From Lachnospiraceae bacterium (GTDB lineage: Bacteria > Bacillota > Clostridia > Lachnospirales > Lachnospiraceae): a stretch of DNA of 44,575 nt. A model generated the notes under the pieces. That model ran no database searches and was not told the origin of the DNA. It worked only from the letters and a program-made list of their open reading frames with translations. A program made the translations under genes and the position numbers. Shown one piece after another: positions 1-17,285 of this stretch; within the stretch, counting starts at the first letter, position 1, and every line of letters starts with the position of its first letter. The stretch spans positions 1 through 44,575 of the forward strand of contig JAFLTB010000014.1 of the NCBI GenBank assembly GCA_022510605.1. Direction: 5' to 3'.

Positions 1-1362
1 GTGCAGCCACGGGACCGGTATCAGAGCATGGCAGAATTCAAAGAGGCTCTGATGGTGACGACTGAGGTTCAAGCAGTGGAAGTACAACCTGAGACTGAAC
101 CACCATCAGAATCGCAGCAGGAGGGACAGCCCGAACCTCAACAGGAACCGCAATATACAGAGCCGGATGCGAAGCGAAAGAGAAAGTGGTTGGAAAATTC
201 AGAAAGAATTTTTTTAGTGATTAGTGGAATTTGTTTTGCTTTATCAGGTGTTCTGTACCTTTGTGTTATAGGAATGCAAAGCAGTTTTGACAAGGACTTG
301 CCGGTTGCCACACTCTTTATAATGAAAAGCTATATTTTAGAGTATTATAGTGAGCCTCAGGCAAGAACCATAATATTAGGCGTATTATACATAATTTTTG
401 CAGTATTTCTTTTCAATAAATTGCTTTTTATAAAGAAGAAAAATAAAGGAGTACTCATCACATCAGGATTGCTTTTGATCATTCAGATAACTTATCTTGC
501 GAACATCCTACCAGCAGATGGGAAACTGGTACTAGCATGGGCAGGGCAAAATCTGGCATACATTTTGATGTTTGCTGTCCTGCTTATAACGGAAATTGAT
601 TTGCCGGAAAAAATAAAATATATAGCCGGCAATGGATGTTTATTGATAGTATGTGTGTATTTGGCTGGATTTTTACTAGCGTGGTCTTTTTACGATTATA
701 ATCGTGGGCTTCCATGGGTGGTACCGCTTGCGTCCATTGCTGAAACAGGAGGAATTCTTTTTACCAGTTTGTGGTGCAGGAAAAAGTTGAGTATTGGCAT
801 TGTTTCAGAAAAAAATGCATTATTAAAACAAAGTGGTGGAATGTGTTTTGCTTTATATGGTTTATATTGCTTGCTTATCTCGACTTTCGTGCTATCTAAA
901 GGGTATAATATAACGCCATTTCGTGCTATAATAAATCTTGTGCTGTCAATTGTTTACATTGGTTTTGCAGTACAGCTTTTTCGGAAAAAGAAAGACTTAA
1001 TCATAGTGGTAGGGTTGCTTTTTGTGCTGCATACAGCCCGTTGCTTCGAAAATTTTCTTGAGAATGTTGATGGTGTTACCGAGATATTTTCAAGTGCAGC
1101 CTACGCACTAATATTAACTGTTTTTATTATAAATGCAATTGCCCTGCCGGAGAAAGTAAAACGTATAGCCAGTCATGGATGTCTGTTGGCAGCATTTGTA
1201 CACTTGGTTGGGGTTATAGCATATTGGCATGCCTTCCATTTTGTGGTGCATTTGCCGGATATGATTCCTTACATTGTCGAAACAGCAGCAATCCTTTTGG
1301 TTGGGTTGTGGTATAGAAAAGAAATCTCCCAGGCTTCCCCCCAATTTGGAGATGTGAATTGA
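1..1362 (+). CDS. C-terminal part of a membrane Ser/Thr protein kinase (5' end outside window)
   Basis: The first ~20 residues (PRDRYQSMAEFKEAL) match the last helix of Hanks-type Ser/Thr kinase domains, where P-x-x-R-Y-x-S is usual. The catalytic domain therefore lies upstream of the window, and the GTG at base 1 is probably an internal Val codon. A Pro/Glu/Gln-rich linker follows (about 24-57), then a basic stretch and many hydrophobic segments. The membrane part looks internally duplicated: LPEKIKYIAGNGCLL near residue 201 and LPEKVKRIASHGCLL near 387 sit in equivalent places, each preceded by similar helices. Such kinases usually carry an extracellular sensor; here the tail is almost entirely membrane-embedded. 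It would be the writer for the three FHA readers and the target or partner of the two PP2C phosphatases downstream. The base composition is visibly AT-rich. The kinase call rests only on the tail plus context. Confidence 0.72.
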   Translation: MQPRDRYQSMAEFKEALMVTTEVQAVEVQPETEPPSESQQEGQPEPQQEPQYTEPDAKRKRKWLENSERIFLVISGICFALSGVLYLCVIGMQSSFDKDLPVATLFIMKSYILEYYSEPQARTIILGVLYIIFAVFLFNKLLFIKKKNKGVLITSGLLLIIQITYLANILPADGKLVLAWAGQNLAYILMFAVLLITEIDLPEKIKYIAGNGCLLIVCVYLAGFLLAWSFYDYNRGLPWVVPLASIAETGGILFTSLWCRKKLSIGIVSEKNALLKQSGGMCFALYGLYCLLISTFVLSKGYNITPFRAIINLVLSIVYIGFAVQLFRKKKDLIIVVGLLFVLHTARCFENFLENVDGVTEIFSSAAYALILTVFIINAIALPEKVKRIASHGCLLAAFVHLVGVIAYWHAFHFVVHLPDMIPYIVETAAILLVGLWYRKEISQASPQFGDVN

Positions 1363-1453
1363 GGGGTTCAGTGAATCACAGTATAACGCTTCGGAACGGA
1401 GGCTGAAATTATAAATAAACAAGAGAACTACAATCAAAAGGAGGCAGGAAATT

Positions 1454-2104
1454 ATGGCAACATATGTAACATGTGCACAGGGACATTTATATGACGCAGA
1501 TTTACATGCGGCATGTCCCATCTGTAATGGAGGCGGGAATGTAATTGATTTTAGTGCAAAACCAGTTTCCGATAATATTGGGAGAACAGCACCGGTGGGC
1601 GGCGGTTTTGGCGCATCAACCGGAGGTGCGCCGGGAAGCGGGGGAAGTGATAATAGCATTGGTGAGACAGTGGCTCCGGACTTCTATCAGAAACGCAAAG
1701 AGGAAGAAGATAAAACCGTTGGTGTTTTCAGCAGGAGCATGAAGTCAGAGCCGACGGTAGGATGGCTGGTATGTATAGAAGGTCAGAATCAGGGGAAAGA
1801 TTACCGGCTTCTGGCAAAGAATAATACGATTGGACGGAGTGACCGTATGGATGTCTGCATCAAAGGCGATATGGCAATAACGCGTGAGAATCATGCACGG
1901 CTGGACTATGATGAAAAGCATAATGGGTATTACCTGAGTCCTGCGGATAATGCGAATACCATCTATCTGAATGATGAAGCGATGTATGTTCCGTCGAAAC
2001 TGTCTGCGTATGATTGTATTGAACTGGGTGATAGCAAATTTATATTTGTGCCCCTGTGCAGTGAGAGGTTTACATGGAGAGATGGTTTGAGACAAGGAGA
2101 ATAG
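1454..2104 (+). CDS. Cytoplasmic zinc-ribbon/FHA-domain protein
   Basis: This 216-residue soluble protein has an N-terminal zinc-ribbon-like motif (C-A-Q-G-H near residue 7, then C-P-I-C near 23). A Gly/Ser/Pro-rich linker follows, then a C-terminal FHA domain (about 95-205) with the signature NTIGRSDRMDVCI and a later TRENHARL segment. FHA domains bind phospho-threonine, so the protein is a likely adaptor read out by the neighbouring kinase. The linker and the segment around FYQKRKEEEDKTVGVF contain Thr residues that could be phosphorylated, as in GarA/Rv1827-type adaptors; this is inference. The start is the ATG preceded by AAAGGAGG at a spacing of about 9. The PP2C gene begins right after its stop codon, so the two are probably translationally coupled. 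Confidence 0.85.
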   Translation: MATYVTCAQGHLYDADLHAACPICNGGGNVIDFSAKPVSDNIGRTAPVGGGFGASTGGAPGSGGSDNSIGETVAPDFYQKRKEEEDKTVGVFSRSMKSEPTVGWLVCIEGQNQGKDYRLLAKNNTIGRSDRMDVCIKGDMAITRENHARLDYDEKHNGYYLSPADNANTIYLNDEAMYVPSKLSAYDCIELGDSKFIFVPLCSERFTWRDGLRQGE

Positions 2105-2105
2105 T

Positions 2106-2942
2106 ATGAAATGGTTGCGGCGAAATAAGAAAACACAGGAAGAAGAGACAGTCATTCGGGCAGAGGCCCCCAGTGTCCGGCCAAGTCTTCTCAGTTATGA
2201 TGCGGCAAACCTTCAGGGTATGGGTACAAGGCGGGGCCAGGAAGACGCTTTCGCCTTCGTCAATATATTTGACGTTACGGAGATAAAAAAGAATGGCCTG
2301 ATGTTTATGGTTGCCGATGGAATGGGCGGCATGAAAGATGGAAGAGTAGCAAGTGATACTGTGATTGCCGGAATGAAGGAAGCTTTTTATCGGATGGACA
2401 GAAGCGGAGACCTGGCATTGCAGCTGCAGGATAGTGTTTTTGAAGTGGGAGAGCAGGTTGTGCGGGCTCTTGGGGGTGATGGAGGTAGTACGTTGATTGC
2501 CTGTATTTTGTTTGAGGAGCAGTTTTACTTCGCAAGTGTAGGGGACAGTTTTCTGTATCTCAAACGGAATGGACAGTTACATCGCCTGAACAGAGAGCAT
2601 AATCTTCTGAATCAGACCTATCTTGAGAACATCCGGCAGGGGAATATGAATCCGGCTCTGTGTGATGCAGGTAAGGAGGGGGCGGCACTGACACAGTTCA
2701 TGGGAATGGAGGGAATGGATGAGATTGATTTTCTCCGTAGTCCACTGCCATTATGTGAGGGGGATACATTTTTGGTATGCTCGGATGGTGTCGGCGGTGT
2801 CCTGTCAGAGCAGACCATTCTTTCCTGTATGGAAAAAGAGGAAGCAAAAGACATCTGTGACGCACTGGAGCGGGAAATTGTGGCACAGGGAAGAGACAAT
2901 CAGGATAATTACACAGCACTGGTAGTGAAGTGTGTTTATTAA
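2106..2942 (+). CDS. PP2C-family Ser/Thr protein phosphatase
   Basis: This 278-residue protein carries the PP2C motif series: RRGQEDAF near residue 39, MVADGMGGMKDG near 74 (metal-binding Asp and Gly), GGSTLIACI and ASVGDSFLYL in the middle, CSDGVGG near 225, and the C-terminal DNYTALVVK (metal-binding Asp). A short basic N-terminus precedes the domain and there is no membrane segment, so it acts in the cytoplasm. It should remove phosphate from Ser/Thr of the kinase, the FHA partners or the dynamins. The ATG lies two bases after the FHA stop, with a ribosome site (AAGGAGA) inside the end of the previous gene. It is one of two different PP2C paralogues in the locus, which suggests distinct substrates. 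Confidence 0.93.
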   Translation: MKWLRRNKKTQEEETVIRAEAPSVRPSLLSYDAANLQGMGTRRGQEDAFAFVNIFDVTEIKKNGLMFMVADGMGGMKDGRVASDTVIAGMKEAFYRMDRSGDLALQLQDSVFEVGEQVVRALGGDGGSTLIACILFEEQFYFASVGDSFLYLKRNGQLHRLNREHNLLNQTYLENIRQGNMNPALCDAGKEGAALTQFMGMEGMDEIDFLRSPLPLCEGDTFLVCSDGVGGVLSEQTILSCMEKEEAKDICDALEREIVAQGRDNQDNYTALVVKCVY

Positions 2943-3002
2943 AAGTTGTAAACAAAGGCAGTGTTAAAAATACGAATACGGTAGCAGAAAGGAGCAATGA
3001 AA

Positions 3003-4319
3003 ATGAGAAAAGGTGTGAAAAAGGGGATAGGGAAAAAATGGCTGACACTCTGTATGGCGTTTGTCCTGCTGTTGGGTGTATCCGGTGGAATCCATACGGC
3101 CACAGTCAGGGGAAACAGTTCCTCCGTCAGAGAAAGCGTGGCGGTTGTGGTGCCCTGCTTAGAGAGCGAGGATGGCCAGCTGATTGCATTGGGCACTGGC
3201 ACTGGATTTTTTGTAGGGGACACGGATTCGGACGCCAAATATATCGTCACAAATCATCATGTAATAGAAGATTTTCTGGAATACGGTGCCGGTGAATGGC
3301 ACAGTGAGACGATAGGGAATGACACCATTAGGGTAAAGACCAAACTTCGTGTGTATTTTGACTCCGATGATTATACGGAGGCATATGTAGTGGATTACGA
3401 TGCGACAAAGGACATTGCCCTGTTAGAACTGGAATCTGCCACAGATAAGAGAAAAGCACTGCCTCTCTGCAGTCCCACCGATGATATGGTGGGAAGCACC
3501 ATATCGGTAGTAGGATACCCGGGGCTCTCGGATAATGCGGTGATAGATTCCACCTCAGCCTGGGGAATGAATGACGCCAGTGTAACCACAGGTACGATTG
3601 GCCGTCTGGTCACAGAATCCGGCACGGGGGTTAAACGTATTCAGACAGATGCCACAATGCAGCATGGCAACTCCGGCGGCCCAATGGTGAACCAGGATAA
3701 CGCTGTCATTGGTATCAGCGTAATGTCAGTAACGAGTGGCGATTCTGACGAGAAGCAGTATTACGCCATTAATATTGATGAACTGATTCCTATGTTGAAA
3801 CTTCACAATGTGCCTTATGAAATAGCAGGTAGTTTTCACATTTCCCAAATGATGCTGTTCATTATCATTGGGGCAGTGGTGGTACTTGCTGTAATTATAG
3901 TTGTACTTGTACTTGTTCTCGGAAAGAAAAAGCCAAAATCTTCTTCCGCAGCGAAGGCGCAGAGTGCACCGAATGCACAGGGGGCAGGTACGGCCGGTAA
4001 TCCGGTGGTGCGCTCCATGTCCGTGCAGCATAGTGGGGCCAGTTTTCCGCTGAATGGGAAGCAGATTTTGATTGGACGTGATACGGCGGCCTGTACTGTC
4101 GTTTTCCGTCCGGACACACCGGGTATCAGCGGCAGACATTGCTCCCTGTCATGGGATGCGTCCACAGGTGAGTTTATCCTTACCGATTTGAAATCAACCT
4201 ATGGTACCTTCCTGGCCAATGGCCAGAAACTGACCTCAGGTGTCCCTTACCGGTTGAAAAAGGGAGAACATTTTTATCTGGGTGAAAATGCCAATATGTT
4301 GTCCGTAGGATTGGAGTGA
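3003..4319 (+). CDS. Membrane-anchored trypsin-like (HtrA-type) protease with cytoplasmic FHA domain
   Basis: The 438-residue protein begins with a basic N-terminus and a signal/anchor (LTLCMAFVLLLGVSGG). A trypsin-fold protease domain follows with a visible triad: His in TNHHVIED (about residue 86), Asp in TKDIALLEL (about 137) and Ser in QHGNSGGPM (about 224). A strong transmembrane helix (MLFIIIGAVVVLAVIIVVLV) comes next, then a Ser/Ala/Lys linker and a C-terminal FHA domain (ILIGRDTAACTVVF, ISGRHCSLSW, STYGTFLANG). The protease therefore faces outside and the FHA faces the cytoplasm. There is no PDZ domain, unlike HtrA/DegP. The start was moved from the ATG at 2997 to the in-frame ATG at 3003, because GGAG at 2991-2994 is only two bases from the former and eight from the latter. 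The protease-to-FHA fusion suggests signalling across the membrane. Confidence 0.9.
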   Translation: MRKGVKKGIGKKWLTLCMAFVLLLGVSGGIHTATVRGNSSSVRESVAVVVPCLESEDGQLIALGTGTGFFVGDTDSDAKYIVTNHHVIEDFLEYGAGEWHSETIGNDTIRVKTKLRVYFDSDDYTEAYVVDYDATKDIALLELESATDKRKALPLCSPTDDMVGSTISVVGYPGLSDNAVIDSTSAWGMNDASVTTGTIGRLVTESGTGVKRIQTDATMQHGNSGGPMVNQDNAVIGISVMSVTSGDSDEKQYYAINIDELIPMLKLHNVPYEIAGSFHISQMMLFIIIGAVVVLAVIIVVLVLVLGKKKPKSSSAAKAQSAPNAQGAGTAGNPVVRSMSVQHSGASFPLNGKQILIGRDTAACTVVFRPDTPGISGRHCSLSWDASTGEFILTDLKSTYGTFLANGQKLTSGVPYRLKKGEHFYLGENANMLSVGLE

Positions 4320-4323
4320 TTGT

Positions 4324-5049
4324 GTGAAACTGGACGGATATGTATATACAAATCAAGGCGGCAGGGATTATAATGAGGATTCTGCGGCCATTCAGGAGAC
4401 AGACGGCCATGGAATCTATATTGTGGCAGATGGCCTGGGAGGGCATCTGCATGGAGAGATGGCCTCTGCCTGTGTGAGGGATTCCCTGATAGAGGGATGG
4501 AATCCCTATGAGGAGCAGGATAGAGGGCAGTCCCTGATGGAGCAGATTGTGGAGGCAAATCAGAAATTAATTGAATTGCAGCGGGAACAGCAATCCACGA
4601 TGAAAAGCACAGTGGTTGTTCTGACCATCGATGAAGAACGTGGGGCATGGGCCCATGTAGGGGATTCCCGATTGTATTATATCCACGGGAATGCTATTCA
4701 AAGCATTACGGAAGATCATTCGGTTGCTTTTAAAAAGTACAAAGCCGGGGAAATTACCAGAGAGCAGATTGCCTGGGATGAGGATCAGTCCAGTCTGCTG
4801 CGTTCTCTTGGCAATAATGATCACTGCGAACCTGCCATACATGTACAGGAAGATGCTCTGGAATCCGGCGATGCTTTTATGCTCTGTTCGGATGGCGTAT
4901 GGGAATATTTACATGACGAAGAGATACTGATTGACCGGCTGAAAGCAGAGACAGCGAAGGAATGGGCAGAATTGCTTTTGCTGCGGATGATTGAACGGAT
5001 TGATACAGGCAATGATAATCTGACTTTGTTGACAGTCATCTTGACGTAG
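4324..5049 (+). CDS. Second PP2C-family Ser/Thr protein phosphatase
   Basis: This 241-residue minimal PP2C domain resembles Stp1/PrpC. Its motifs are GGRDYNEDSAAI near residue 12, IYIVADGLGGHLHGE near 37, STVVVLTIDEERGAWAHVGDSRLYY, DHSVAFKKYKAGEIT (flap region), LRSLG, MLCSDGVWEYL and the final GNDNLTLLTVIL with the metal-binding Asp. It uses a GTG start with GGAG at 4313-4316, seven bases upstream, inside the end of the protease gene; the genes are four bases apart. Its sequence is clearly different from the first PP2C (it has the canonical flap region and is shorter), so this is not a recent duplication. It probably reverses kinase-dependent phosphorylation in the same pathway. Confidence 0.94.
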   Translation: MKLDGYVYTNQGGRDYNEDSAAIQETDGHGIYIVADGLGGHLHGEMASACVRDSLIEGWNPYEEQDRGQSLMEQIVEANQKLIELQREQQSTMKSTVVVLTIDEERGAWAHVGDSRLYYIHGNAIQSITEDHSVAFKKYKAGEITREQIAWDEDQSSLLRSLGNNDHCEPAIHVQEDALESGDAFMLCSDGVWEYLHDEEILIDRLKAETAKEWAELLLLRMIERIDTGNDNLTLLTVILT

Positions 5050-5107: not shown

Positions 5108-6613
5108 ATGAGAAAAAGAATAATTGCAATTTGCATGGTTTTTTTGATGGTCTGGCTGATGATGCCAATTCAGACATGGGCTAAGCCCGATTTGAATAAG
5201 GCTGTCATACCAATATCCACATATTGTCTGGGAGATCAGATGCACGCGTTTGTAAATCTGAAGCCTGTATGCGACCCGGACACCATGAAAGTGGAAATTC
5301 AAAGTGGGGTTTCTTCGGAAGGAGAGACGGCACCTGTACCGCTGACAGAGAGTGATTCCATTGTCAGGTATTTATTCTTGATTGACCTATCCATGTCCAT
5401 GAAGGATTACGTCAGTGAAATTGAGAACTTTGTCGCTGCTCTGATGCGTGCAGAGAAGCAGGAGGCCGTCTATAGCGTGGCATCCTTTGGAGAGCAGTAT
5501 AAAATGGTCAGGAAGAATCTGACAGACTCTAAAACCGTGATAGATACAGTGAAGAATCTGGCATATGACCAGTATTTAACAGACCCCTATACGGCAATGA
5601 CCAGCGCCCTCACCGATTTAAAAGCAAACTGCCCCCGTGTAAGTGGAGATGTTGTCAATTTGGTTCTCATATCCGACGGGGAGCCGGATTTGGAGCAGGG
5701 TGATACGGCAGCAGAAGGGGAGAAGGAAAAGAGACTGGATAGCAAAGCGGCACAGAAGATAGGGGATACGCAGGATATTATTGTGCATACATTGATGTTT
5801 GCAGGGACGGGTTCCCATGCTGTTACCTCATTTTCGGCAGGAACCGGTCTGAGCCTGAAGACAGATGGAAGAAATGCAGGAAATAAAATTGCTTCTTTTG
5901 TGGACAGTCTGTACCGGCTCACCTTTTCCCTGTCAAAAGCCCCGTCAGATAATGAGGTTTCCGTCCAATTGAGCTATATGCCCAACGGGAAAAAGATTTT
6001 TACGGGTGAGTTACAGTTGGAATCTGTACCAGTGTTGCGAGGTTCCCTTTCTAATGGGGGAGATTCTGAGCAGGCTCCGGATGATTCCGGGGGAGGTTCC
6101 TGGAATGGGGGAAATGAGATTTCAGGAAGCGCCAGCTCCGGCAGCGGGATTTCCGGGGATACAGGCTCCGGGGACAATATTTTGGGTTTTCCGGGATATT
6201 TATGGATGATTCTGGGAGCCATTGTTCTGATTGTCATAGTCCTTTTGATTTTTGTTATCTGCAGGAAGAAGAAAAAAGGTGCTGGACACAGAAGGAAGAA
6301 AGTAAATTTGGATGAGGCAATATATATGAGGATGGAAATACTGGCCGGAGATTGTGTTACCTCAGACAGAGATTTTTATCTGACAGACCAGATTGTCATA
6401 GGAAGTGATTCGGATTGCGATTTGGTTTTGGAAGAGAAGGATGCTTCCGGACGCCACTCGCGAATCTTTTGCAAAGACCAGATGATTTACATCGAAGATT
6501 TACATTCGACAAATGGTACAATGTTGGAGGGAATGCGGCTCCATGCACCAAATCCTCTGAGGAGCGGCAACGAGATAACGATTGGAACAGCCCGGTTCAC
6601 CTTCCGCTTTTAG
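5108..6613 (+). CDS. Extracellular VWA-domain protein with transmembrane helix and cytoplasmic FHA domain
   Basis: This 501-residue protein starts with a signal peptide (MRKRIIAICMVFLMVWLMM). A von Willebrand A domain follows with an intact MIDAS motif D-L-S-M-S at about 93-97 and a later SDGEPD loop. A Gly/Ser-rich spacer (about 305-355), a transmembrane helix (WMILGAIVLIVIVLLIFVIC), a basic stop-transfer stretch and a C-terminal FHA domain (IVIGSDSDCDLVL, SGRHSRIFC, HSTNGTMLEG) complete it. The layout parallels the protease-FHA protein two genes upstream: an outside domain, one membrane pass and an inside FHA. VWA domains bind protein ligands through a metal, so this may sense or hold an extracellular partner and recruit phosphorylated cytoplasmic proteins. 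The ATG follows AGGAGAAG about 6 bases upstream. Confidence 0.9.
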   Translation: MRKRIIAICMVFLMVWLMMPIQTWAKPDLNKAVIPISTYCLGDQMHAFVNLKPVCDPDTMKVEIQSGVSSEGETAPVPLTESDSIVRYLFLIDLSMSMKDYVSEIENFVAALMRAEKQEAVYSVASFGEQYKMVRKNLTDSKTVIDTVKNLAYDQYLTDPYTAMTSALTDLKANCPRVSGDVVNLVLISDGEPDLEQGDTAAEGEKEKRLDSKAAQKIGDTQDIIVHTLMFAGTGSHAVTSFSAGTGLSLKTDGRNAGNKIASFVDSLYRLTFSLSKAPSDNEVSVQLSYMPNGKKIFTGELQLESVPVLRGSLSNGGDSEQAPDDSGGGSWNGGNEISGSASSGSGISGDTGSGDNILGFPGYLWMILGAIVLIVIVLLIFVICRKKKKGAGHRRKKVNLDEAIYMRMEILAGDCVTSDRDFYLTDQIVIGSDSDCDLVLEEKDASGRHSRIFCKDQMIYIEDLHSTNGTMLEGMRLHAPNPLRSGNEITIGTARFTFRF

Positions 6614-8414: not shown

Positions 8415-8458
8415 GTGAAATTGAAATTGACTACGCACAGGGAAAGGAAGTTGGGAAA

Positions 8459-9997
8459 ATGAGTTTACTGGAAAAAATGGGTGATGCAGCGGTGCTTGCC
8501 GGCTGTGAGGAGGACATAAAGGCCTTTGATGCCGTAATTGAGAGGCTGCAGGGAAGTAAAACAAAAAATATTGCGGTTCTTGGGGAAGCAAACTGCGGCA
8601 AGACAGAGCTTATAAATATGATAGCGGGAAAAGAGGTCAGGAAACCGACCAAACTTTCTTTGGGAGAAGAACCGTTGATGTTGACATTCAACAGTGGCGA
8701 GTCAAAGCCGGAGTACGAGGTGACAGACATAAAAGATTCCCAATATGAGGAAGCCGGACTTTCATTCTACGAAATTCCAATAGATATGGCGCTGGACAGC
8801 GACTCCGGGCAGGTGCGGCCGATGCTGGAGGAAATGGATGCGGTTATATATATCCTGTCGGCAGTCACGCCTATGACCGCTTTGGACGTAGCTAATATAG
8901 AGGCGTTTGTGAACAAACTTCCACTTGTTGTATTCATTAGTAAGACGGATTTGCTGGATAGTGAAGAGGATTATCAGTCTACGCTTGAATACATCCAAAA
9001 TGAATTTTCAGATAGGTTCGGCAATACAATCTGTGAATTTTTTGATAACAATCAGGGAGAGGCTGCGGATGCCATAGTTGGCAGCCTGAAGGAAATATCT
9101 CTGGATGAACTTCGGGAATTCCACATAATACGAATTGAGCAGCAGATGAAAAATTTAGTCATTGAAAGACTGAATGAACAGTTGGAGGAATTGGATAAAG
9201 AGAAGAAAAGACGGGAAGAAGAGAAGGCCCGGGGGGATGCTGAATACAGGAAAAAAACTCTTCAGTGGGAAAGTGTACGGGTAAAAATGCTGGAGAAAGA
9301 GCAAAGGGTGATGGAAGAAGCAGAGCAGAAACTGAGTGCTTCAAGTATAAGCGTAAAAAAGGAAATGAAGAAGGAATTAAAAGAGGCATCCAATAAAAAG
9401 GAATGGATGGAACGAAGCATGAAGCATGTTGTGCGGGGCGAGGTGGAAAATGTAGTTGAACGCCTGAACGAGGATATAGAAGACCGGGCAAAGGCAGACG
9501 CCGCATGGCTGGTCAGCGAGGTAAACAGACAGTTTGGCGTGAAAATCCAGGTAGAGGATATTCAATTAAAAGGTACGGCCCGCACCGAGGGAAATCCAGA
9601 GAGCTGCAAGGAGAAGCCGCCGTATCAGAAAGCAATTGTCGCAGCAGGTGCCGGGATTCTTGCCGGTGGAGCGGTTCTGAGCAGTATATCATTGATACCG
9701 ACCTGTATTATTGCCATACCGGCCTCTGTGATTACTTTGACATGTATCAAGGGAAGCATGGATGATTTAGAAAAATATAACAAAAAACTTATCCGGCTGG
9801 TGGAGGATTATTGTGATAAGGTTTTCAACAATCTGTCAAAACAGATTCATGCAGGCATCCGTAAGTACTATGGCAATATTACGGAATGTATAAGGAAGCT
9901 GAGTGTCAGAGACGAAGAAGATGTGGATATGGGAGATATTGATGAGAGACGGGATAAGCTGTCCCAGGCCATTCATCAATTGCAACAGGCCCTTTAA
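8459..9997 (+). CDS. Dynamin-like GTPase 2 with degenerate G3 motif and membrane hairpin
   Basis: The GTPase domain has a P-loop (GEANCGKTELI, near residue 40) and a G4-like FISKTDLL near 160. Where DxxG is expected it reads FYEIPIDM, so switch II is degenerate. A long charged coiled coil follows (LEELDKEKKRREEEKARG and onward). A paired hydrophobic segment near 400-435 (AIVAAGAGILAGGAVLSSIS, then PTCIIAIPASVITLTCI) looks like a membrane hairpin, and a helical tail ends the protein. An in-frame TTG at 8411 would overlap the previous stop, but AAGGAAG at 8444-8450 lies eight bases before the ATG at 8459, which I prefer. With a weak G3 it may bind GTP but hydrolyse it poorly and serve as the partner of the other dynamins. 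Confidence 0.82.
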   Translation: MSLLEKMGDAAVLAGCEEDIKAFDAVIERLQGSKTKNIAVLGEANCGKTELINMIAGKEVRKPTKLSLGEEPLMLTFNSGESKPEYEVTDIKDSQYEEAGLSFYEIPIDMALDSDSGQVRPMLEEMDAVIYILSAVTPMTALDVANIEAFVNKLPLVVFISKTDLLDSEEDYQSTLEYIQNEFSDRFGNTICEFFDNNQGEAADAIVGSLKEISLDELREFHIIRIEQQMKNLVIERLNEQLEELDKEKKRREEEKARGDAEYRKKTLQWESVRVKMLEKEQRVMEEAEQKLSASSISVKKEMKKELKEASNKKEWMERSMKHVVRGEVENVVERLNEDIEDRAKADAAWLVSEVNRQFGVKIQVEDIQLKGTARTEGNPESCKEKPPYQKAIVAAGAGILAGGAVLSSISLIPTCIIAIPASVITLTCIKGSMDDLEKYNKKLIRLVEDYCDKVFNNLSKQIHAGIRKYYGNITECIRKLSVRDEEDVDMGDIDERRDKLSQAIHQLQQAL

Positions 9998-10038: not shown

Positions 10039-12036
10039 ATGATTAGTACAAAATCGTTTAAAGAAGTTATGGAAAAAATTCACCAGAAGGTGAGCGAGGA
10101 GAAGGAACTTCTTGTGAAAAATGGTGTGTCTGTCAAGGGAACATCGGAAAATGAGGATATTGACGTTCTGCTCCGAAGAACCAAAGACACTTCCTTTAAA
10201 GTTCTTGTTATGGGAAGATTCAGTTCGGGAAAGTCTGCCTTTATTAATGTTCTTTTGGGCGAAAAACTCCTGCCGGAAGGCGCTATGCCGATGACGGCTC
10301 TTATAACGGAGATATATTATGGCGAGGAGAAGAAGGTGATTATGTTCCCGAAAGAGGGGCAGTGGCCGGACGGAGATGAGCCCTTTGAGATTGAACCGAA
10401 GCTTTCCGAGATAAAAAAATTCTCAACAATTAACAATAAGTCCGGCATGAACAAAAAAGAGGCAAACAGGGTGGATTCCTGCTTTGAGAAGATGATTGTT
10501 TACTGGCCCCTTGACATATTGAAGGAAGGCGTATCCATTGTGGACTCGCCGGGAACGGACGACCCGTACTCCAATGATTATATTGTGGAGGAATATGTGC
10601 CTAAGGCAGATGCCATATTATACTGCATTAACGGTACCAACGCATATTGTGCGGGAGATAAGAGGACTCTTGAGCGAATGAACAGTATTGGGTTTGACAA
10701 TCCCATTATTGTCACCTCTTATTTTGATGTGGTAACAGATGGAATGGAGCCGGATGAAATACAGGATTTTATCGACACCTCCTACCAGTCCTTTTATTCA
10801 AACCATACAGAGAAAAAATACTGCCATTATGTAAATTCCAAACTGGGTATGCAGGGTAAAATTGAAAATAAGCAATCGGATCTGGTGGATTCCGGATATT
10901 TTGAACTGGAAAAGGTTTTGAGCCAGTTTTTGACAGAGAATAAAGGAAAGGCCAAGATTGCTGGTGTAACAGCGGCAGTCAGACAATTCAATGAGGGACA
11001 GAAAAAACGGCTGAATGGTGTAATATCCAATCTCGACAGACCGCTGGAGGACTTTAACAAACGTGTGGAGGAGGCCAAAGCACGTCTGGAACAGGCAGAA
11101 CTGCAGGGAGAACTTCTGATACGGGAATTCAAGATTGGATTGAAGGAGCCAAAAGAGAAGGTGGCGAACGAACTGATGCCACAGCTCTATCAGGATCTTT
11201 ATGATAATATAAATCTGGATGATTTTGAACCCGACACCAATTTTACCATGTGGCATCCGAAGGAAAGCAGTGCCCAGATAGCAGATGAGTGCAGCAAGGA
11301 GCTTGAGATAAGGAATAAACAGTATGTATCAGACTGGAATAAAAGGGTTTTGCAGCCGATGGTGACAGAATCCTTTAAAGAGATTGTATCCAAAATGCAA
11401 AATCAATTCGATGCCTTTGAATCGGATATAGAGGAAGCCAATCTTACCCTTGAGACAGGAGGCGTTCATGTCGACACAGAGGTCAAGACGGGGACACGCG
11501 TTGCTATGGTAGCCTATGCGCTGGTGACAGGAGACTGGCTTACGGCTCTTATGGGCGGTGTTTTTGGTATGGCAGCCTTTGGAAGAACAATGGCCTGCGA
11601 GTTTGCCGCGGGTCTGGTGGTGGGTATTATAGCTTTATTTACCCCTGTGGGGCTGGCGACAATAGTTATTGCAGCGATTGGCGGACTGATTGGCGGTTTG
11701 GCATGGAATGCCTCCAAAGCGGCTCAATCCGTTAAAAATAACGCGGTCAAAGCAATGCGCGAATCCCTAAGCGAAAATAAAGAAAAAATCATTGTGGAAG
11801 CGACAAAAAAGTGTACAGAGATTTTTGACAAACAGGTCGAGACATTGAAGCAGGCCATTGATGATGATATTGAAGAAGTACGTGAAAATATCGAGATTAT
11901 TAAAGAAGAAAGAAAAACGAACGAGGCAAAGATAAACAACCGCAAGGAAGAGCTCTCCGGGCTGGAAAAATTCATTGACAGTGTGGATGAGGAAATGGTA
12001 CGCATAAGGAAAGAACTGGATATCCGGCAGGATTGA
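10039..12036 (+). CDS. Dynamin-like GTPase 3 with C-terminal membrane segment
   Basis: This 665-residue protein has a P-loop GRFSSGKSAF (about 59-68), a Thr in switch I (MPMTALITEIYYG) and G3 DSPGTDDPYS near 173. The expected G4 reads TSYFDVV, a departure from N/T-K-x-D. A long helical region is followed by a very hydrophobic, Gly/Ala-rich stretch (about 490-565, including GLVVGIIALFTPVGLATIV) that could form two membrane-inserted helices. A coiled-coil tail (EIIKEERKTNEAKINNRKEE) ends it. This is the layout of membrane-inserted bacterial dynamins. It has its own strong ribosome site (AGAGAAAGGAAGG), and the following gene is 22 bases downstream. Confidence 0.87.
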   Translation: MISTKSFKEVMEKIHQKVSEEKELLVKNGVSVKGTSENEDIDVLLRRTKDTSFKVLVMGRFSSGKSAFINVLLGEKLLPEGAMPMTALITEIYYGEEKKVIMFPKEGQWPDGDEPFEIEPKLSEIKKFSTINNKSGMNKKEANRVDSCFEKMIVYWPLDILKEGVSIVDSPGTDDPYSNDYIVEEYVPKADAILYCINGTNAYCAGDKRTLERMNSIGFDNPIIVTSYFDVVTDGMEPDEIQDFIDTSYQSFYSNHTEKKYCHYVNSKLGMQGKIENKQSDLVDSGYFELEKVLSQFLTENKGKAKIAGVTAAVRQFNEGQKKRLNGVISNLDRPLEDFNKRVEEAKARLEQAELQGELLIREFKIGLKEPKEKVANELMPQLYQDLYDNINLDDFEPDTNFTMWHPKESSAQIADECSKELEIRNKQYVSDWNKRVLQPMVTESFKEIVSKMQNQFDAFESDIEEANLTLETGGVHVDTEVKTGTRVAMVAYALVTGDWLTALMGGVFGMAAFGRTMACEFAAGLVVGIIALFTPVGLATIVIAAIGGLIGGLAWNASKAAQSVKNNAVKAMRESLSENKEKIIVEATKKCTEIFDKQVETLKQAIDDDIEEVRENIEIIKEERKTNEAKINNRKEELSGLEKFIDSVDEEMVRIRKELDIRQD

Positions 12037-12058: not shown

Positions 12059-12670
12059 ATGACAAACATAAAAGTGAGTTATAACCCTTTTACGAAAGAG
12101 ACAAAAGTTTACAATGAGAAGCATGAAATTGCAGCGGCAGAAAATAAGCTGCATACCTTTTTGAATACCAATGGCTTTTATGACTGTCTGGTGCCGTTTC
12201 GTACCAAGTATGTAATCTGGGAGGGGCTTTTGCCGGAGTTGTTTAATGAGGCAAACGACGATGAATTAAGAATCACATTTGAAGGACGGGAGTCAGACTT
12301 TGCTGTTCTGAAAGAAGCATTTGAGCGCTCAGAAACAGTTGACAATGGGGCGGGGGATGCAAACAAATGGAGTCTGGTGCACATAGGAAATTTTGATGTT
12401 CAGAATCTGCTGGATGAACTACTGGATTTGGCCCAGGTGATTCGGGAAATATGTGAAACGAGAGAAGAACTGAATGAAATAAACCAGAGTATTTCGGGAA
12501 TCAAGAAGGGAGATTACAGCCGGGGCTGTCAGTCGCTGCAAAGGATTTTATCTGCGCATATTCATGGGCTGGAGCAGGAGGATGATAGATACCGTTCAGG
12601 GAAAACAGTTCATCTTGAAATGACAGCCAGTCGTCTGGATGAAATCAGCGCCCGGTTAGAAGAAGGATGA
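12059..12670 (+). CDS. Unknown protein of the dynamin/HerA locus
   Basis: I do not recognise a family for this 203-residue soluble protein. The N-terminal ~95 residues look alpha/beta (IKVSYNPFTKETKVYN, LRITFEGRESDFAVLKEAFE). The second half is mostly charged helix (LLDELLDLAQVIREICETRE, ISGIKKGDYSRGCQSL, MTASRLDEISARLEEG). There is no signal peptide and no membrane helix. Tight packing between the third dynamin and the ATPase gene (13-base gap with AGGAGGTGAG) suggests a subunit or adaptor linking them. The sequence shows no catalytic motif. Confidence 0.8.
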   Translation: MTNIKVSYNPFTKETKVYNEKHEIAAAENKLHTFLNTNGFYDCLVPFRTKYVIWEGLLPELFNEANDDELRITFEGRESDFAVLKEAFERSETVDNGAGDANKWSLVHIGNFDVQNLLDELLDLAQVIREICETREELNEINQSISGIKKGDYSRGCQSLQRILSAHIHGLEQEDDRYRSGKTVHLEMTASRLDEISARLEEG

Positions 12671-12683
12671 AGGAGGTGAGACA

Positions 12684-15600
12684 GTGTCTGAAAAAATGGA
12701 TTTGGCATCGGTAGAGAGCAATGCCAGAGTGCTGGCAAACAGTTTTGACGATGGCATTATTTCTGCTATAAGTATGGCAGACAGTTTTGTCAGAAAGCAG
12801 TATCTGACCGAGTTAAAAGATGCGCAGGTGGTGCCGATTAGCAGTCAGGCGGCACAGATTATGGTTGGGAAAAATGTGAGAATGTTCAAAATAAGGTCGA
12901 TTTCTTATTGCGAGGCAGATGACATTTACAGTAAAATTACCAATCTCTATAATGCGGTTTCGGAATTTAGTGCCAGCCAGATTCTGTTGCTTGACAGTGA
13001 CGGTTACAAGATATCTTTCTATCTTGGCATTTCATGCAATGAGTTGGACAAACTCAGCATGCAGTTTAATACCTTTGAGAGTTCCTTTCTCGGGAATTTT
13101 CCCGGGGGCCGGATAGAAAAGATGAGTATCACGCAAAATGAAGAGTTGTTTGGCAGCATATTTGATGAACCTAACATTAAAATCTCCTCTGTTTCAGCAC
13201 TGACAACGGCAAAAGAGGCTTCCGGTGACAGGATTTATGGTATAGAGCATCTGGTGAATGGCATGTATGGGAAGCCATTTACCATGCTGCTTATATCAGA
13301 TGCCGTTTCAAAGGATGAAATCCGGCGGCAGCGCCAGAGCCTTGAAGCTATGTATACGGAACTGTCTGCCTTCCGTGAATACACGGTTTCCATGAACAAA
13401 AGCGAGTCTGAAGGCCGCACTCAGTCCTTTAATTTTACAAAAAGCGAATCGGTAACAGAAGGAAAAAGTGTAACAGACAGTACCACTTTTGGAAAATCAA
13501 AAAATAAATCCAGTACGGTTTCGGATAATGAGGAAATGCAGCGGAAAAATGCGAAAAACCAGCTGGCGGGAACGGCGTTGTCTCTGGCTGCCATTATTTC
13601 CGGTTTTGGTGCCCCGGTAATCAATGGCGTTGTACAGACAATGAATCCCCTGCAGGGTTTGTTTTATGGAGGAAGTCTTTCCAATGTGATAGGCTCGGCC
13701 CAGACACTGATTAGCGGGGCAGATGCGAGCCGGACCGAGACGACCGGAGAGGGGGAAAACTACAGTATCAGTTTCTCGGAGGCAGAAACCACCTCACAGC
13801 AGAAAGGATTTTCCGCATCCAAGGGGATTTCCGACAGCAGTACGGACACGGTGGGGCGTTCTGTTCAGCTGCAGTATGAGAACAAATCCATTATGGAACT
13901 GCTCAAGGTACTTAGTGCCCGAATCGAAAGGATGCAGCATATAGAGTCAAGGGGAGGCTTTGACTGTGCCGCATATTTTGTGACAGGCGATAATTCCACC
14001 GCACTGACAGTTGCCAACATGTATCGGTCGTTGTTAGGAAGGGGGAACAGTCTGGGACAGAATAATGCAATCAATGTATGGTCGGAGCCCAATATGGTAA
14101 CGGGGCTTTGTGAGTACCTTAAAAGAATGGAACATCCGCTGTTCCATTTTGAGAAAAAGCCGGGATATCCGACTTTTACCGCAAGTTCACTGGTGGCAGT
14201 GGATGAATTTCCGATGTACGCCTCGCTTCCACGGAAGTCATTGAATGGACTGCCGGTTGCGTTACGTGCAGAATTTGCCAGAGATATTATAAGCACAAGT
14301 GACGACGATTCGGACAGAATTGAAATTGGAAATATTTTTCATATGGGAAAGACAGAAGTCAATAAGGTTTTTATATCCAAAAATGATTTGAGCGGCCATA
14401 TGTTTGTCTGTGGCTCTACCGGTATGGGAAAATCCAATTTCTGTTATGGTCTTATTGATGCCCTGCATAAAAAAGATGTCAGGTTCATGGTGATTGAGCC
14501 AGCTAAGGGCGAGTACCGCCATGTATTTGGAGGCTGTGAGGATGTTCTTACATTTGGTACAAACCCTAATCTGGCGCCGTTATTGAAGATTAATCCTTTT
14601 TCCTTTCCGAAAGGCATCCATGTTAACGAGCATATCAGCCGGTTATTGGAGATATTTAACTCCTGCTGGCCTATGTATGCGGCTATGCCGGAGGTCATGA
14701 AGGAGGGCATTGAGACTATTTACAAAAGGTGTGGATATGACTTGATTACCGGCAGGCTGTATGGTCAATCTGGCAGGGATACTAAAAGAAAATTTCCAAC
14801 CTTTGCTGATTTACTGAATATCCTGCCGGATATTATAAAAAGTTCTGAATTTTCGGGGGAGGTAAAAGGCAATTATATTGGCTCTCTGGTTACCCGGGTC
14901 AAGTCTCTTACGGATGGATTATACGGCTGTATATTTACGGAGAATGAAATAGATAACCGCACTTTATTTGAAGAAAATGTTCTGGTTGATTTGAGCCGTG
15001 TGGGTTTTGGAGAGATGAAGGCGCTGATTATGGGCGTGATGGTGATGAAACTGCAGGAATACCGGATGTGTACCGCTGAGATGAATACACCATTATCCCA
15101 TGTCACCGTATTGGAAGAGGCACACCATCTGTTGAAATCCAATACGTCTTCCAGTGCAGAGGGTGTTAATCTACGGGCCATGTCACTGGAAATGATAACG
15201 AATGCGATTGCTGAAATGCGTACCTATGGTGAAGGATTTATTATTGCTGACCAGTCACCGGCCATGATGGATTTGTCTGTTATTCGTAATACAAATACAA
15301 AGGTTGTGTTCAAACTGCCGGAAAATTCAGACCGTGTGGCAGTGGGAAGTGCCATGTCTCTTTCCGATGTCCGGATTAATGAATTATCACGACTGGAAAG
15401 AGGAGTAGCCGCAATTTATCAAAGTAACTGGGATAATGCTGTTTTATCGAAAATCCGGTATTTTGACAGCGGGAATTTCAAGCCATACATATATGATGCG
15501 CCGCCGGAGCAGGCCAGCAGCCGCGAGGTTTGTTCCCAGTTGCTGGCTATTCTGCTGAGAGGCAGACTTTCAGAAGAGGAAGAGTCTTCGCTGGATGCTG

Positions 15601-15977
15601 GTTTCTGTGATAAATTGTTGTCGAATTCTACGTATGCTGGAGGTGATTTAGAAGAGTATCTGGCTCTGATACGCCGGTACATGCAGAATGACGGGTGCGA
15701 GTTCTCCTTTGCTCAAATCTGCCGATACATAGACAGGATGATTCATAGCCGAAAACTGTTACACGAGTGCGGAAGTATGGAGCAGTTAGCCCAATGGGAT
15801 GCCAGGGCAAGGGCGTATATAAATAAAATAGTGGATTTGACAGAGGATGAGATGACGGAACTGATTATTATATGTATCAATATCCAGGTAAGCAGGAATG
15901 TTGAATTAAGAAAAATGTATTTTCGCTATTTTGCATACTGCCGGAGAACAAAAAAGGGAAAAGATAAAGCACAATAG
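12684..15977 (+). CDS. HerA/DUF87-type ATPase with long N-terminal region and Ser-rich segment
   Basis: This 1097-residue protein is the largest in the locus. The C-terminal half is a RecA-like HerA/VirB4-class motor. Walker A is GSTGMGKSNF (about 577), IEPAKGEYRHVFGG follows as in HerA-type ATPases, and Walker B is VTVLEEAHHLL (about 808). A later FIIADQSPAMMDLSVIRN resembles the HerA sensor region. The N-terminal half is unfamiliar. It has an alpha/beta start, a stretch dense in Ser/Thr (about 235-285: ESEGRTQSFNFTKSESVTEG), a hydrophobic segment (AGTALSLAAIISGFGAPVIN), then a second Ser-rich part. The hydrophobic segment could touch the membrane, and the Ser/Thr-rich stretches are natural kinase targets. 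GTG start, AGGAGGTGAG just upstream. HerA motors pump DNA or drive export; which applies here is unknown. Confidence 0.85.
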   Translation: MSEKMDLASVESNARVLANSFDDGIISAISMADSFVRKQYLTELKDAQVVPISSQAAQIMVGKNVRMFKIRSISYCEADDIYSKITNLYNAVSEFSASQILLLDSDGYKISFYLGISCNELDKLSMQFNTFESSFLGNFPGGRIEKMSITQNEELFGSIFDEPNIKISSVSALTTAKEASGDRIYGIEHLVNGMYGKPFTMLLISDAVSKDEIRRQRQSLEAMYTELSAFREYTVSMNKSESEGRTQSFNFTKSESVTEGKSVTDSTTFGKSKNKSSTVSDNEEMQRKNAKNQLAGTALSLAAIISGFGAPVINGVVQTMNPLQGLFYGGSLSNVIGSAQTLISGADASRTETTGEGENYSISFSEAETTSQQKGFSASKGISDSSTDTVGRSVQLQYENKSIMELLKVLSARIERMQHIESRGGFDCAAYFVTGDNSTALTVANMYRSLLGRGNSLGQNNAINVWSEPNMVTGLCEYLKRMEHPLFHFEKKPGYPTFTASSLVAVDEFPMYASLPRKSLNGLPVALRAEFARDIISTSDDDSDRIEIGNIFHMGKTEVNKVFISKNDLSGHMFVCGSTGMGKSNFCYGLIDALHKKDVRFMVIEPAKGEYRHVFGGCEDVLTFGTNPNLAPLLKINPFSFPKGIHVNEHISRLLEIFNSCWPMYAAMPEVMKEGIETIYKRCGYDLITGRLYGQSGRDTKRKFPTFADLLNILPDIIKSSEFSGEVKGNYIGSLVTRVKSLTDGLYGCIFTENEIDNRTLFEENVLVDLSRVGFGEMKALIMGVMVMKLQEYRMCTAEMNTPLSHVTVLEEAHHLLKSNTSSSAEGVNLRAMSLEMITNAIAEMRTYGEGFIIADQSPAMMDLSVIRNTNTKVVFKLPENSDRVAVGSAMSLSDVRINELSRLERGVAAIYQSNWDNAVLSKIRYFDSGNFKPYIYDAPPEQASSREVCSQLLAILLRGRLSEEEESSLDAGFCDKLLSNSTYAGGDLEEYLALIRRYMQNDGCEFSFAQICRYIDRMIHSRKLLHECGSMEQLAQWDARARAYINKIVDLTEDEMTELIIICINIQVSRNVELRKMYFRYFAYCRRTKKGKDKAQ

Positions 15978-15991
15978 AAAGAAGGTATGTT

Positions 15992-16750
15992 ATGATGTTT
16001 ATGGAAGGAATGCAATTGGATGAAGCCATGGAGCCAGTGAATATTACGGAAACCGGAGAAGGAGTCGAAGCCGGCATTGACTATGATGGAATCGGGGAAA
16101 AGATGGTTGATGCGGAAGTCAGGACAGATGTGGAAAACTTTGAGGGGGAAGAGGTGATTGTAATTGGAAATCCATTTGAGGTAGCAGGGAATTTGGATTA
16201 TAAACAAGGGGATAATCCATATGGAGCCCGGGGGGACTGTGGACTGACAAGCTGTTCCAATTTTTTGAATCTCTGCGGAATTGAGGCAACGGAAGATGAT
16301 GTCGTTGGATTTGCCCTTGAAAATGGTCTGTGTGCGAACAATCCATTTGCCTCTCCAGAGCATGTGGGAGGGACAAATGATGCGCAATTAGAGACCATTC
16401 TGGAATGCTATGGCGTAGAGTCCTCTGTCTATTATCCAGATGATTCCCAGGGTTCACTGGAGGGAATCGCCAGTGCTGTTGAGGAAGGACATGCGGTAAT
16501 GATGGGTGTGAACGCTGGATATTTGTGGGATGAACCAGCTTATGTAGATGGTGGTGATGTGAACCATCAGATTACAGTAACCGGTGCCATTAGAGATACG
16601 GAAGGCGAAGTTGTCGGACTGACAATCTGCGACAGCGGAAGAGGTCTGGAGGAAGATAGCTGCAGAGTTCTTTCCATATCAGAACTACAGGATTGTTATG
16701 CAACAGCAGGCGGTGCCTCAGTGATTATTTCAGACGAAGTTGTAAGATAG
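15992..16750 (+). CDS. Papain/C39-like cysteine protease-fold protein
   Basis: This 252-residue acidic protein has a papain-like (C39-type) arrangement. Cys83 sits in YGARGDCGLTSCSNFL at the start of a helix, His192 in DVNHQITVTGAI and Asp214 in TICDSGRG, in the right order and spacing for a Cys-His-Asp triad. The N-terminal ~70 residues are acidic and probably disordered. No signal peptide or transmembrane helix is visible, so it is either cytoplasmic or exported by a leaderless route. It could process a partner, act as a maturation protease, or be cargo/effector of the preceding ATPase. The ATG at 15992 (or 15995) follows GAAGG. It ends 13 bases before the next gene. Confidence 0.72.
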   Translation: MMFMEGMQLDEAMEPVNITETGEGVEAGIDYDGIGEKMVDAEVRTDVENFEGEEVIVIGNPFEVAGNLDYKQGDNPYGARGDCGLTSCSNFLNLCGIEATEDDVVGFALENGLCANNPFASPEHVGGTNDAQLETILECYGVESSVYYPDDSQGSLEGIASAVEEGHAVMMGVNAGYLWDEPAYVDGGDVNHQITVTGAIRDTEGEVVGLTICDSGRGLEEDSCRVLSISELQDCYATAGGASVIISDEVVR

Positions 16751-16763
16751 AGGAGGATCCAAT

Positions 16764-17285
16764 ATGAAAGCAAAAAAGATTAAAAGCATTGACACTATTG
16801 CAGCAATAAAGGTTGCGACAGGAACCAATTTTTCCAAGTCGTTTTATATACCGGTTAAAAAAGGTGATCATATTCTCGATGCAGCATTTTTGTATAGTGC
16901 CGGAAGCCTGTCACAAACCAGACTGCGTCCCAATGCATCAATTATCATTGAGCCAGGTTCAGGCTCTATTCTTGAATACCGAAATTCCTATATCAATGAT
17001 TTTATGGATTCGGCTAAATATCCAATGACATTGGAACTGGATTATTCCGTACCGTCTGCCAAATCTGCAAAGGAGCAGGGTGAACTTGTAAAAACCGTCA
17101 ATGAGTTATATGGGGACATTCGCAAAATGGCCTTTAAGGAAACTTTAAGCGATGCCCAGAAAAAAACTCTTGCGAAATACAATTCTTGCTTTTATAAGGC
17201 AGTTCCTGACTCCTTGGTGCCATTTTATGAAGCCTTGTCACCAGAGTTCTTTCAATGGATGAAAGAGATGATTACTCTGCAATAA
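16764..17285 (+). CDS. Unknown protein, last gene of the locus
   Basis: This 173-residue protein belongs to no family I recognise. The first ~100 residues look beta-rich (FYIPVKKGDHILDAAFLYS, NASIIIEPGSGSILEYRNS, YPMTLELDYSVP) and the rest helical (KEQGELVKTVNELYGDIRKM, LSPEFFQWMKEMI). There is no signal peptide, no membrane segment and no Cys cluster. It follows the C39-like gene by 13 bases with GAGGAGG, so it is probably its partner: an inhibitor, substrate or immunity-like protein are possibilities, none shown by sequence. The stop codon overlaps a reading frame that continues into a degraded HD-domain fragment. Confidence 0.78.
   Translation: MKAKKIKSIDTIAAIKVATGTNFSKSFYIPVKKGDHILDAAFLYSAGSLSQTRLRPNASIIIEPGSGSILEYRNSYINDFMDSAKYPMTLELDYSVPSAKSAKEQGELVKTVNELYGDIRKMAFKETLSDAQKKTLAKYNSCFYKAVPDSLVPFYEALSPEFFQWMKEMITLQ

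Follow-up and report, generated by a model that had tools for sequence, protein, structure and literature searches.

What could thirteen consecutive genes for phospho-signalling, dynamin-like and HerA-type proteins do together at the end of a contig from a Lachnospiraceae bacterium? The stretch analysed here, which we call the window, is the whole 44,575-nucleotide contig JAFLTB010000014.1 of a 2.72-Mb draft genome (GenBank assembly GCA_022510605.1), and the genes in question fill its positions 1-17285. An earlier note on this DNA had proposed a single undescribed system, a kinase-controlled envelope machine for stress repair, phage defence or export. Comparison with related loci divides the genes into two units. 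By its gene content the left half (1-6613) is a separable operon, and the right half (6636-17285) is a rare subtype of a widespread core. We favour the reading, with a probability of about 0.6, that this is a polymorphic-toxin locus with a delivery machine made of dynamins and a VirB4-like ATPase, perhaps under kinase control in this organism. It looks like a little-known means of delivering toxins to rivals because the core recurs across bacterial groups with swapped toxins. Of the roles offered earlier, export fits this reading.

The ATPase in the right half is predicted to have a HerA/VirB4-like fold. VirB4 ranks first among the structural matches to its predicted model, tied within 1 Z unit with DndH-C, and the HerA-SIR2 and HerA-DUF4297 complexes are among its structural neighbours. 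In Pfam, a DUF87 match scores higher than a weak FtsK/SpoIIIE match (24.2 against a cut-off of 24). The NF033849 model of a serine-rich protein gives 70.6 bits and does not reach its curated cut-off of 650.

A scan of named genomes revealed at least 524 relatives of this ATPase. Our distribution figures rest on the best 80 of them, and so describe the near relatives of the window protein; 42 of the 80 were used in the structure-based alignment. The titles of these 80 name many Bacillota, including Paenibacillus, as well as Brachyspira, Treponema, Leptotrichia, Synergistaceae, Pasteurellaceae and Psychrobacter, which we read as about five phyla. The distribution is patchy, since the ATPase was found in 17 of 200 sampled genomes of the family and 4 of 39 genomes of the genus, its own genome counted in both. 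We compared 93 distinct ATPase loci, 78 from the best 80 and 15 taken separately from genomes, with L057 and L116 excluded as duplicates of L021 and L023. Clustering of neighbouring genes, with clusters named after few members (the WYL cluster after one representative) and read without part of loci L068 to L077, revealed a common layout: a WYL/helix-turn-helix regulator, a dynamin of ~440 residues, a dynamin of ~770 residues, a protein of ~190 residues, the ATPase and two small genes. Loci of this kind are called ordinary below. Among the 84 loci with at least 4 kb upstream of the ATPase, same-strand dynamin-like genes lie upstream in 72 (at least one) or 65 (at least two). Plasmid records from Escherichia coli, Lactococcus cremoris and Treponema saccharophilum have annotations for two dynamins, one or two hypothetical genes, the ATPase, an HNH-type nuclease and then an SMI1/KNR4 or hypothetical gene; an Exiguobacterium plasmid has the ATPase, HNH and SMI1/KNR4 genes with no annotated dynamin. 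Near-identical DNA of the E. coli plasmid copy occurs in 1 of 5,426 E. coli genomes. A phage-borne system was considered and rejected, with 7 loci in a viral contig collection and 2 records in a phage collection. A GrpE/DnaK-linked chaperone role for the small gene before the ATPase was also dropped: Pfam gave nothing in one representative, and a literature search gave nothing alike. A second subtype of the core was seen upstream of the ATPase in L023, L086, L099 and L117, where two dynamin-cluster genes of ~520-550 residues, a ~420-residue gene (beta-helix-like in L099) and genes of ~315-370 residues from no known family precede a ~715-residue dynamin.

The genes that follow the ATPase carry the argument. 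A same-strand gene lies within 400 bp 3' of the ATPase in 87 of the 93 loci, with a median gap of -3 bp; in four of the other six downstream genes were found on a second look, and two end at a contig end. Pfam matches in this first slot (88 proteins, window included) are Colicin-DNase in 44, WHH in 43, NUC in 12 and LHH in 10, with overlaps between HNH families, and more rarely NERD in two and GH-E, an ADP-ribosyltransferase and a papain-fold toxin in one each. In the second slot (80 proteins, window included) they are SUKH_6 in 33, SMI1 in 33, SUKH_5 in 29, DUF6985 in 17, a YezG-like immunity family in two and SUFU in one. In relatives the first slot thus mostly holds a nuclease toxin (WHH, LHH or NUC), and the second an immunity-like gene of the SUKH or another type. 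None of these families was among the 25 of 126 families listed for 88 control genes (140-330 residues) located further downstream; these were drawn from 198 eligible open reading frames, the listed families have at most three members each, and single matches are possible beyond the 25.

The two slots vary together. Toxin and immunity clusters pair strictly, in 21, 18, 10, 10 and 7 loci (66 of 79), with zero crossing among the five pairs. In two Brachyspira loci, L049 and L085, the ATPases are 91% identical over 1,040 residues and the toxin and immunity genes are unrelated. Seventy of the 87 slot-1 proteins fall into four main clusters, the fourth of which (7 loci) has no sure family and is nuclease-like by eye only. 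Among these 70 toxins, 21 of the 149 matches between the first 80 residues cross cluster types, compared with 3, 0, 0, 2 and 2 in five shuffles, and 1 of the 616 matches between the last 80 residues does so. The relatives therefore combine related N-termini with different C-terminal toxins, and their downstream immunity genes are swapped with the toxin. N-terminal relatedness, strict pairing and cassette swapping are marks of polymorphic toxins. A simple hydrophobicity scale detected no hydrophobic stretch in the first 60 residues of any of the 87 slot-1 proteins, and the toxins would leave the cell without a Sec signal. A possible targeting motif, [LAFM][DN]xP[LIVFM], was found in 18 of the 87 against a shuffle mean of 1.5; it was set aside because it is absent from most of the proteins, kinship inflates the count and it was chosen after looking. 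Orphan immunity genes were counted in 11 of the 93 loci, and the count was dropped since the selection of open reading frames had hidden the true toxin in several. L067 (13123-15050, plus strand) carries two successive cassettes after the ATPase, an unassigned-family protein with a small gene and then a WHH-like protein with a small gene; the N-termini of the two look alike by eye.

In the window these slots are occupied by a papain/C39-like protein and a 173-residue protein, a placement in a widespread polymorphic-toxin locus that had been missed. The former would be the toxin and the latter its immunity protein. In Pfam the C39/papain-like call has a weak match (E 0.016), but none of Q72, C83, H192 and D214 varies between the window protein and six homologues, which is the pattern expected for a papain-like peptidase; two of the homologues come from clusters of the type VII secretion system (T7SS) type. 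Homologues occur in 8 of 348 genomes of the family, its own counted. The gene order of L135 is GTPase A, GTPase B, GTPase C, the 203-residue protein described below, ATPase, C39 protein and 173-residue protein, and its final gene carries the domain twice; immunity in the window is thus suggested by position and by L135. L136 has the order GTPase B, GTPase C, 203-residue protein, ATPase, GTPase A and C39 protein. The toxin domain is also shared with other delivery routes. In L138 and L140 it makes up the C-terminal part of a protein encoded within a T7SS-type cluster; L138 also encodes an FtsK/SpoIIIE ATPase and a WXG100 protein that scores below threshold, and L140 was assigned to this type by eye. 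It also ends acidic-repeat proteins in L139 and L141, in L141 directly after a distant ATPase relative of 896 residues. A short motif at the N-terminus of the window toxin is shared with L136, L137 and L143, as seen by eye. Foldseek placed papain-like proteases (IdeS, Mac-1, calpain) among its best rows, none reaching E 0.001, and is not used as proof of a papain fold; a profile search of solved structures with the window toxin found nothing. In L141 (4882-10635) and L031 (6551-12568) we observed a second, shorter ATPase relative (~890 residues) and, after it, a protein whose long N-terminus is rich in Asp and Glu; this may be a sister toxin system. The L141 protein, which ends in the C39 domain, is followed by a gene for 160 residues.

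The remaining genes of the right half suggest how the window differs from ordinary loci. The 203-residue protein aligns with residues 3-117 of their large dynamin (hhalign Prob 96.7, E 4e-10), and blast matches it to the large dynamin in four loci. The group of the window encodes it as a separate gene, and ordinary loci have its homologue as the N-terminal domain within their large dynamin; being a split dynamin domain, it is tied to the dynamins. That it might be the counterpart of the ~190-residue protein of ordinary loci was rejected (Prob 0.1), as it matches the dynamin N-terminus instead. In a FastTree tree of 100 ATPases the window groups with L038, L136 and L135 (support 0.95 to 1.0). 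The subtype is rare: a protein search with GTPase C in 200 genomes found the own genome only, in a sample whose listed rows leave out G288 (L135) and G358 (L136). LytTR regulators are seen inside or beside the dynamin-ATPase operon in L038 (5792-6544) and L143 (2344-3063), both of the window subtype.

Several observations weigh against toxin delivery. About a fifth of the slot-1 proteins (17 of 87) lie outside the four main clusters, and one slot-1 protein is a methyltransferase. In two of the six plasmid loci, those of Ruminococcus albus and Acinetobacter piscicola, only hypothetical genes directly follow the ATPase. In the window, neither the papain-like nor the 173-residue protein has a Pfam match at 1e-3, and a single-sequence model of the C39 protein is poor (predicted local distance difference test score, pLDDT, 43). 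L038, with the closest ATPase, has no recognised toxin 3' of it, and in L137 the C39 gene comes after a fused dynamin, the stretch covered containing no ATPase. No channel or envelope-spanning component was recognised. In addition, HerA-type ATPases are known in defence, and WYL-cluster regulators lie upstream in 35 of the 84 loci. WYL regulators are common in phage defence.

These last points fit an anti-phage or abortive-infection system, in which the HerA-type ATPase would load an effector enzyme (a nuclease, here a protease) onto its target inside the same cell, dynamins would sense membrane damage by phage and WYL regulators DNA damage, and the second gene would be a silencing antitoxin. 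PADLOC found matches to parts only (HerA, mad8, DndH, Leo dynamins, proteases and two candidate models) and no whole system; the resemblance of the ATPase to the HerA, mad8 and DndH models and the LeoA-type dynamins are nevertheless consistent with defence, as is the position of the Exiguobacterium plasmid copy between UvrD/PD-DExK and McrC-type genes. The arrangement also resembles HerA-SIR2, HerA-DUF4297 and HerA-NurA, where a HerA-type ATPase stands beside an effector enzyme. Unlike these complexes, the locus has dynamins, a long N-terminal region and a Ser-rich insert in its ATPase, and effectors that are colicin-type nucleases or papain-like toxins accompanied by immunity-like genes. PADLOC identified no SIR2 or DUF4297 partner among 10 of the 13 window proteins, mad8 being the only MADS-type match, and none of its models fits the nucleases from two typical loci or an SMI1 protein from one. 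We consider the anti-phage reading unlikely: most slot-2 genes come from families that confer immunity to toxins used between bacteria, and they are exchanged along with the toxin, the N-termini are related while the C-terminal toxins differ, the cargo includes the ADP-ribosyltransferase and the papain-fold toxin, and the C39 domain is shared with T7SS-type clusters.

The thirteen open reading frames are consecutive on the plus strand (Table 1), with gaps of 91, 1, 54, 4, 58, 22, -4, 41, 22, 13, 14 and 13 bp; most are within the 0-60 bases first reported, the exceptions being the gap of 91 bp and the overlap of 4 bp. Pfam analysis of 17 window proteins detected FHA domains in three of them and PP2C and Dynamin_N in two each, together with trypsin, VWA and DUF87. 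Catalytic motifs are present in the ATPase, trypsin and PP2C proteins, as are the metal-ion-dependent adhesion site (MIDAS) in the VWA protein and a G1 motif in all three GTPases. The families and the one-strand layout given by the earlier note are therefore borne out, with reservations on some of the calls. Dynamin_N was found in two of the three dynamin-like GTPases, and the second is divergent, with weak general GTPase matches in Pfam. The membrane Ser/Thr kinase, of which we have only the tail because the window starts at the contig end, has no kinase match of its own; it is identified as a kinase through an 18-residue match (83% identity) to the full kinase (Pkinase E 3e-34) of the matching L158 operon from another species of the genus. 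In the window, 17285 is the probable end of the operon: positions 17413-17441 hold a promoter-like site (11 of 12) just 5' of two small membrane-protein genes, although promoter-like sites overall are no more numerous than in shuffles (36 against a mean of 32.5). Beyond it, 18276-20311 encodes AIR-carboxylase-like (LarB-like) and nickel-insertion (LarC-like) proteins, probably for nickel-pincer cofactor synthesis and unrelated to the finding, and 21887-23584 a secreted protein of 565 residues, M14-type carboxypeptidase-like by eye, with a Pro/Glu/Thr-rich linker.

Table 1. Genes at positions 1-17285 of the window and the evidence for their assignment.
Feature	Position	Strand	Evidence
Membrane Ser/Thr kinase, C-terminal tail only	1..1362	+	Many hydrophobic segments; no Pfam kinase match itself
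FHA1, FHA protein without hydrophobic segment	1454..2104	+	Pfam FHA 1.3e-6; homologues in L158-L161, 38-60% identity
PP2C phosphatase a	2106..2942	+	PP2C_2 2.2e-10; motifs; homologues in four other genomes
Trypsin-like protease - transmembrane segment - FHA	2997..4319	+	Trypsin_2 2.6e-26, FHA 7e-15; TNHHV 85, DIALL 139, GNSGGP 224
PP2C phosphatase b	4324..5049	+	PP2C_2 1.1e-13
VWA - transmembrane segment - FHA protein	5108..6613	+	FHA 1.4e-16, VWA_2 3e-6; MIDAS DLSMS at 93
Dynamin-like GTPase A	6636..8414	+	Dynamin_N 8e-20; profile match (Prob 99.9, E 2e-37) to the first dynamin in ordinary loci
Divergent dynamin-like GTPase B, start codon uncertain	8411..9997	+	G1 at 58; hydrophobic 408-445; LeoBC 5e-6; no Dynamin_N match
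Dynamin-like GTPase C	10039..12036	+	Dynamin_N 1.6e-28; bacterial dynamin helical domain 2.6e-13; hydrophobic 516-553
203-residue protein (split gene)	12059..12670	+	Homologue of N-terminal domain of large dynamin of ordinary loci
HerA/VirB4-like ATPase, 1097 residues (predicted fold)	12684..15977	+	DUF87; Ser-rich, low-confidence insert 238-394
Papain/C39-like protein, toxin slot (candidate toxin)	15992..16750	+	Position as in relatives; intact Cys-His-Asp
173-residue protein, immunity slot (candidate immunity protein)	16764..17285	+	Position; duplicated homologue 3' of C39 gene in L135

Are the thirteen genes one conserved system? The comparison speaks against it. Homologues of the left half were studied in four genomes, G231 of the same genus and G114, G147 and G194 (loci L158-L162). 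In all four, FHA1, PP2C a, trypsin-FHA, PP2C b and VWA-FHA are matched by neighbouring genes (26-64% identity), and a kinase or kinase-like gene lies alongside; the kinase of L158 was identified by Pfam and that of L160 by its motif, and those of L159 and L161 were judged by eye. Searches with single proteins matched VWA-FHA in 5 of 348 family genomes at E 1e-15 and trypsin-FHA in 3 of 39 genus genomes, its own counted in each; G329 and G204, with a single match each to one module protein, are outside the four-genome comparison. An ATPase profile search found nothing in G231, G114 and G147, all of which have the module, and located the ATPase of G194 on another contig. Conversely, the flanks of ATPase loci, within the stretches covered, showed neither a PP2C nor an FHA1 homologue; module proteins are matched there only twice, by a trypsin-like sequence in L053 and an FHA sequence in L076. 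The left half is separable because the module occurs without the ATPase in three genomes and the ATPase-locus flanks lack PP2C and FHA1. A conserved thirteen-gene system is therefore rejected: when the same gene set was sought elsewhere, as the earlier note had advised, its halves were found apart, the outcome which that note had named as refuting it. Its view of the left half as envelope-facing phospho-signalling we judge to be right.

A serious alternative, which touches the kinase-control step alone, is that the two halves came to lie together by chance. The kinase operon would then have its own envelope role, the toxin locus being merely inserted beside it, and we rate this a little below an even chance. 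In L158, L159 and L161 neither dynamins nor an ATPase adjoin the module, and the genome distribution and the flanks described above, as well as the patchiness of the ATPase in the genus, agree with such an insertion and count against kinase control. On the other side, the module ends 22 bp upstream of GTPase A on the same strand, with no terminator-like site in the gap. In L162, from one of the four module genomes, dynamin genes lie beside the kinase/FHA/PP2C/trypsin/VWA module, and one of them (4699-6564, minus strand) encodes a 621-residue protein with Dynamin_N and a C-terminal FHA domain; the ATPase profile search found nothing in that genome. The association of FHA with dynamins thus recurs beyond the window, though the thirteen-gene set does not. 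In L135 (3191-6058, minus strand) a 955-residue kinase-NACHT gene lies directly 3' of the toxin and immunity genes, and kinase-like genes are found in the flanks of four ATPase loci (L027, L054, L072 and L076). The 22-bp adjacency, the dynamin-FHA fusion and the kinase-NACHT gene suggest that kinase/FHA signalling acts on the dynamins.

How does the locus compare with known toxin systems? In the parts considered here, the survey of polymorphic toxin systems by Zhang et al. (2012, PMC3482391) distinguishes eight or more delivery routes and lists the papain-like Tox-PLC39 and Tox-PL among the toxins. The loci share with those systems a variable C-terminal toxin domain, an adjacent SUKH/SUFU-type immunity gene and cassette exchange. 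Unlike them, the loci combine dynamins with a HerA/VirB4-like ATPase, a route that does not appear in those parts, where mentions of HerA concern YueA-like T7SS ATPases; the word 'dynamin' was not found in that paper. LeoABC (Michie et al., 2014, PMC4159319) is alike in tying bacterial dynamins to vesicle-associated toxin release, and differs in that the portions of that paper considered name no ATPase or polymorphic toxin. The window dynamins match the LeoA and LeoBC models in PADLOC; GTPase A, at 26.5 bits, does not reach the curated cut-off of 325 of the LeoA/HP0731 model. Among the 17 Pfam-scanned window proteins there is no VirB component of type IV secretion besides the VirB4-like ATPase, and no WXG100 protein; the WXG100/EssC signature of a T7SS was not found. 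In the threonine-phosphorylation pathway of the type VI secretion system (T6SS), a kinase, a PP2C phosphatase and an FHA protein (PpkA, PppA and Fha) gate a toxin-delivery machine. By analogy, kinase, PP2C and FHA proteins may gate a candidate toxin-delivery machine in the window. Unlike in the T6SS, no T6SS gene was recognised in the locus, and FHA domains score 30 and 34 bits against a T6SS-FHA cut-off of 120. The kind of system, polymorphic toxins, is already known, and the delivery machine is possibly a new part. No description of the dynamin-ATPase-toxin core was found in an open-access library, outside which most subscription papers lie. Two papers there mention both dynamin and polymorphic toxin, and by their titles both deal with Neisseria meningitidis.

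Based on these comparisons, we propose how toxin delivery could work. The toxins would carry an N-terminal leader in place of a Sec-type signal. The HerA/VirB4-like ATPase, probably a hexameric pump, would bind the leader and push the toxin towards or across the membrane, and the dynamin-like GTPases would bend, bud or fuse the membrane, allowing the toxin out or into a neighbouring cell; in this respect the original suggestion that the dynamins act on membranes was, in our judgement, right. The left module may gate the dynamins by phosphorylation. The general form of this proposal is more tentative, and we hold it at somewhat less than even odds: a class of delivery machines in about five phyla, sometimes on plasmids, in which the ATPase and two to three dynamins deliver leader-tagged toxins by membrane budding or fusing with no known secretion channel, controlled by kinase, FHA and PP2C proteins in this organism. 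The absence of a recognised export channel would also suit a stress module of the toxin-antitoxin kind, whose ATPase and dynamins would answer envelope stress within the cell, with neither export nor a role against phages. Stress sensing may also suit the protease and VWA domains, both of which come with a membrane segment. We find such a module improbable, as the toxin types and the cassette swapping fit competition between cells better.

If toxin delivery is the function of the locus, dynamins and a secretion-type ATPase would provide a further toxin-delivery route, found among many Firmicutes as well as some spirochaetes, fusobacteria and proteobacteria. Few roles are reported for bacterial dynamins in the parts of Michie et al. 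(2014, PMC4159319) considered here, and the locus would give them a testable function. Many toxin-immunity pairs would be added as well. The relatives in Paenibacillus and Lactococcus cremoris, bacteria that we regard as harmless and culturable, make this reading directly testable.

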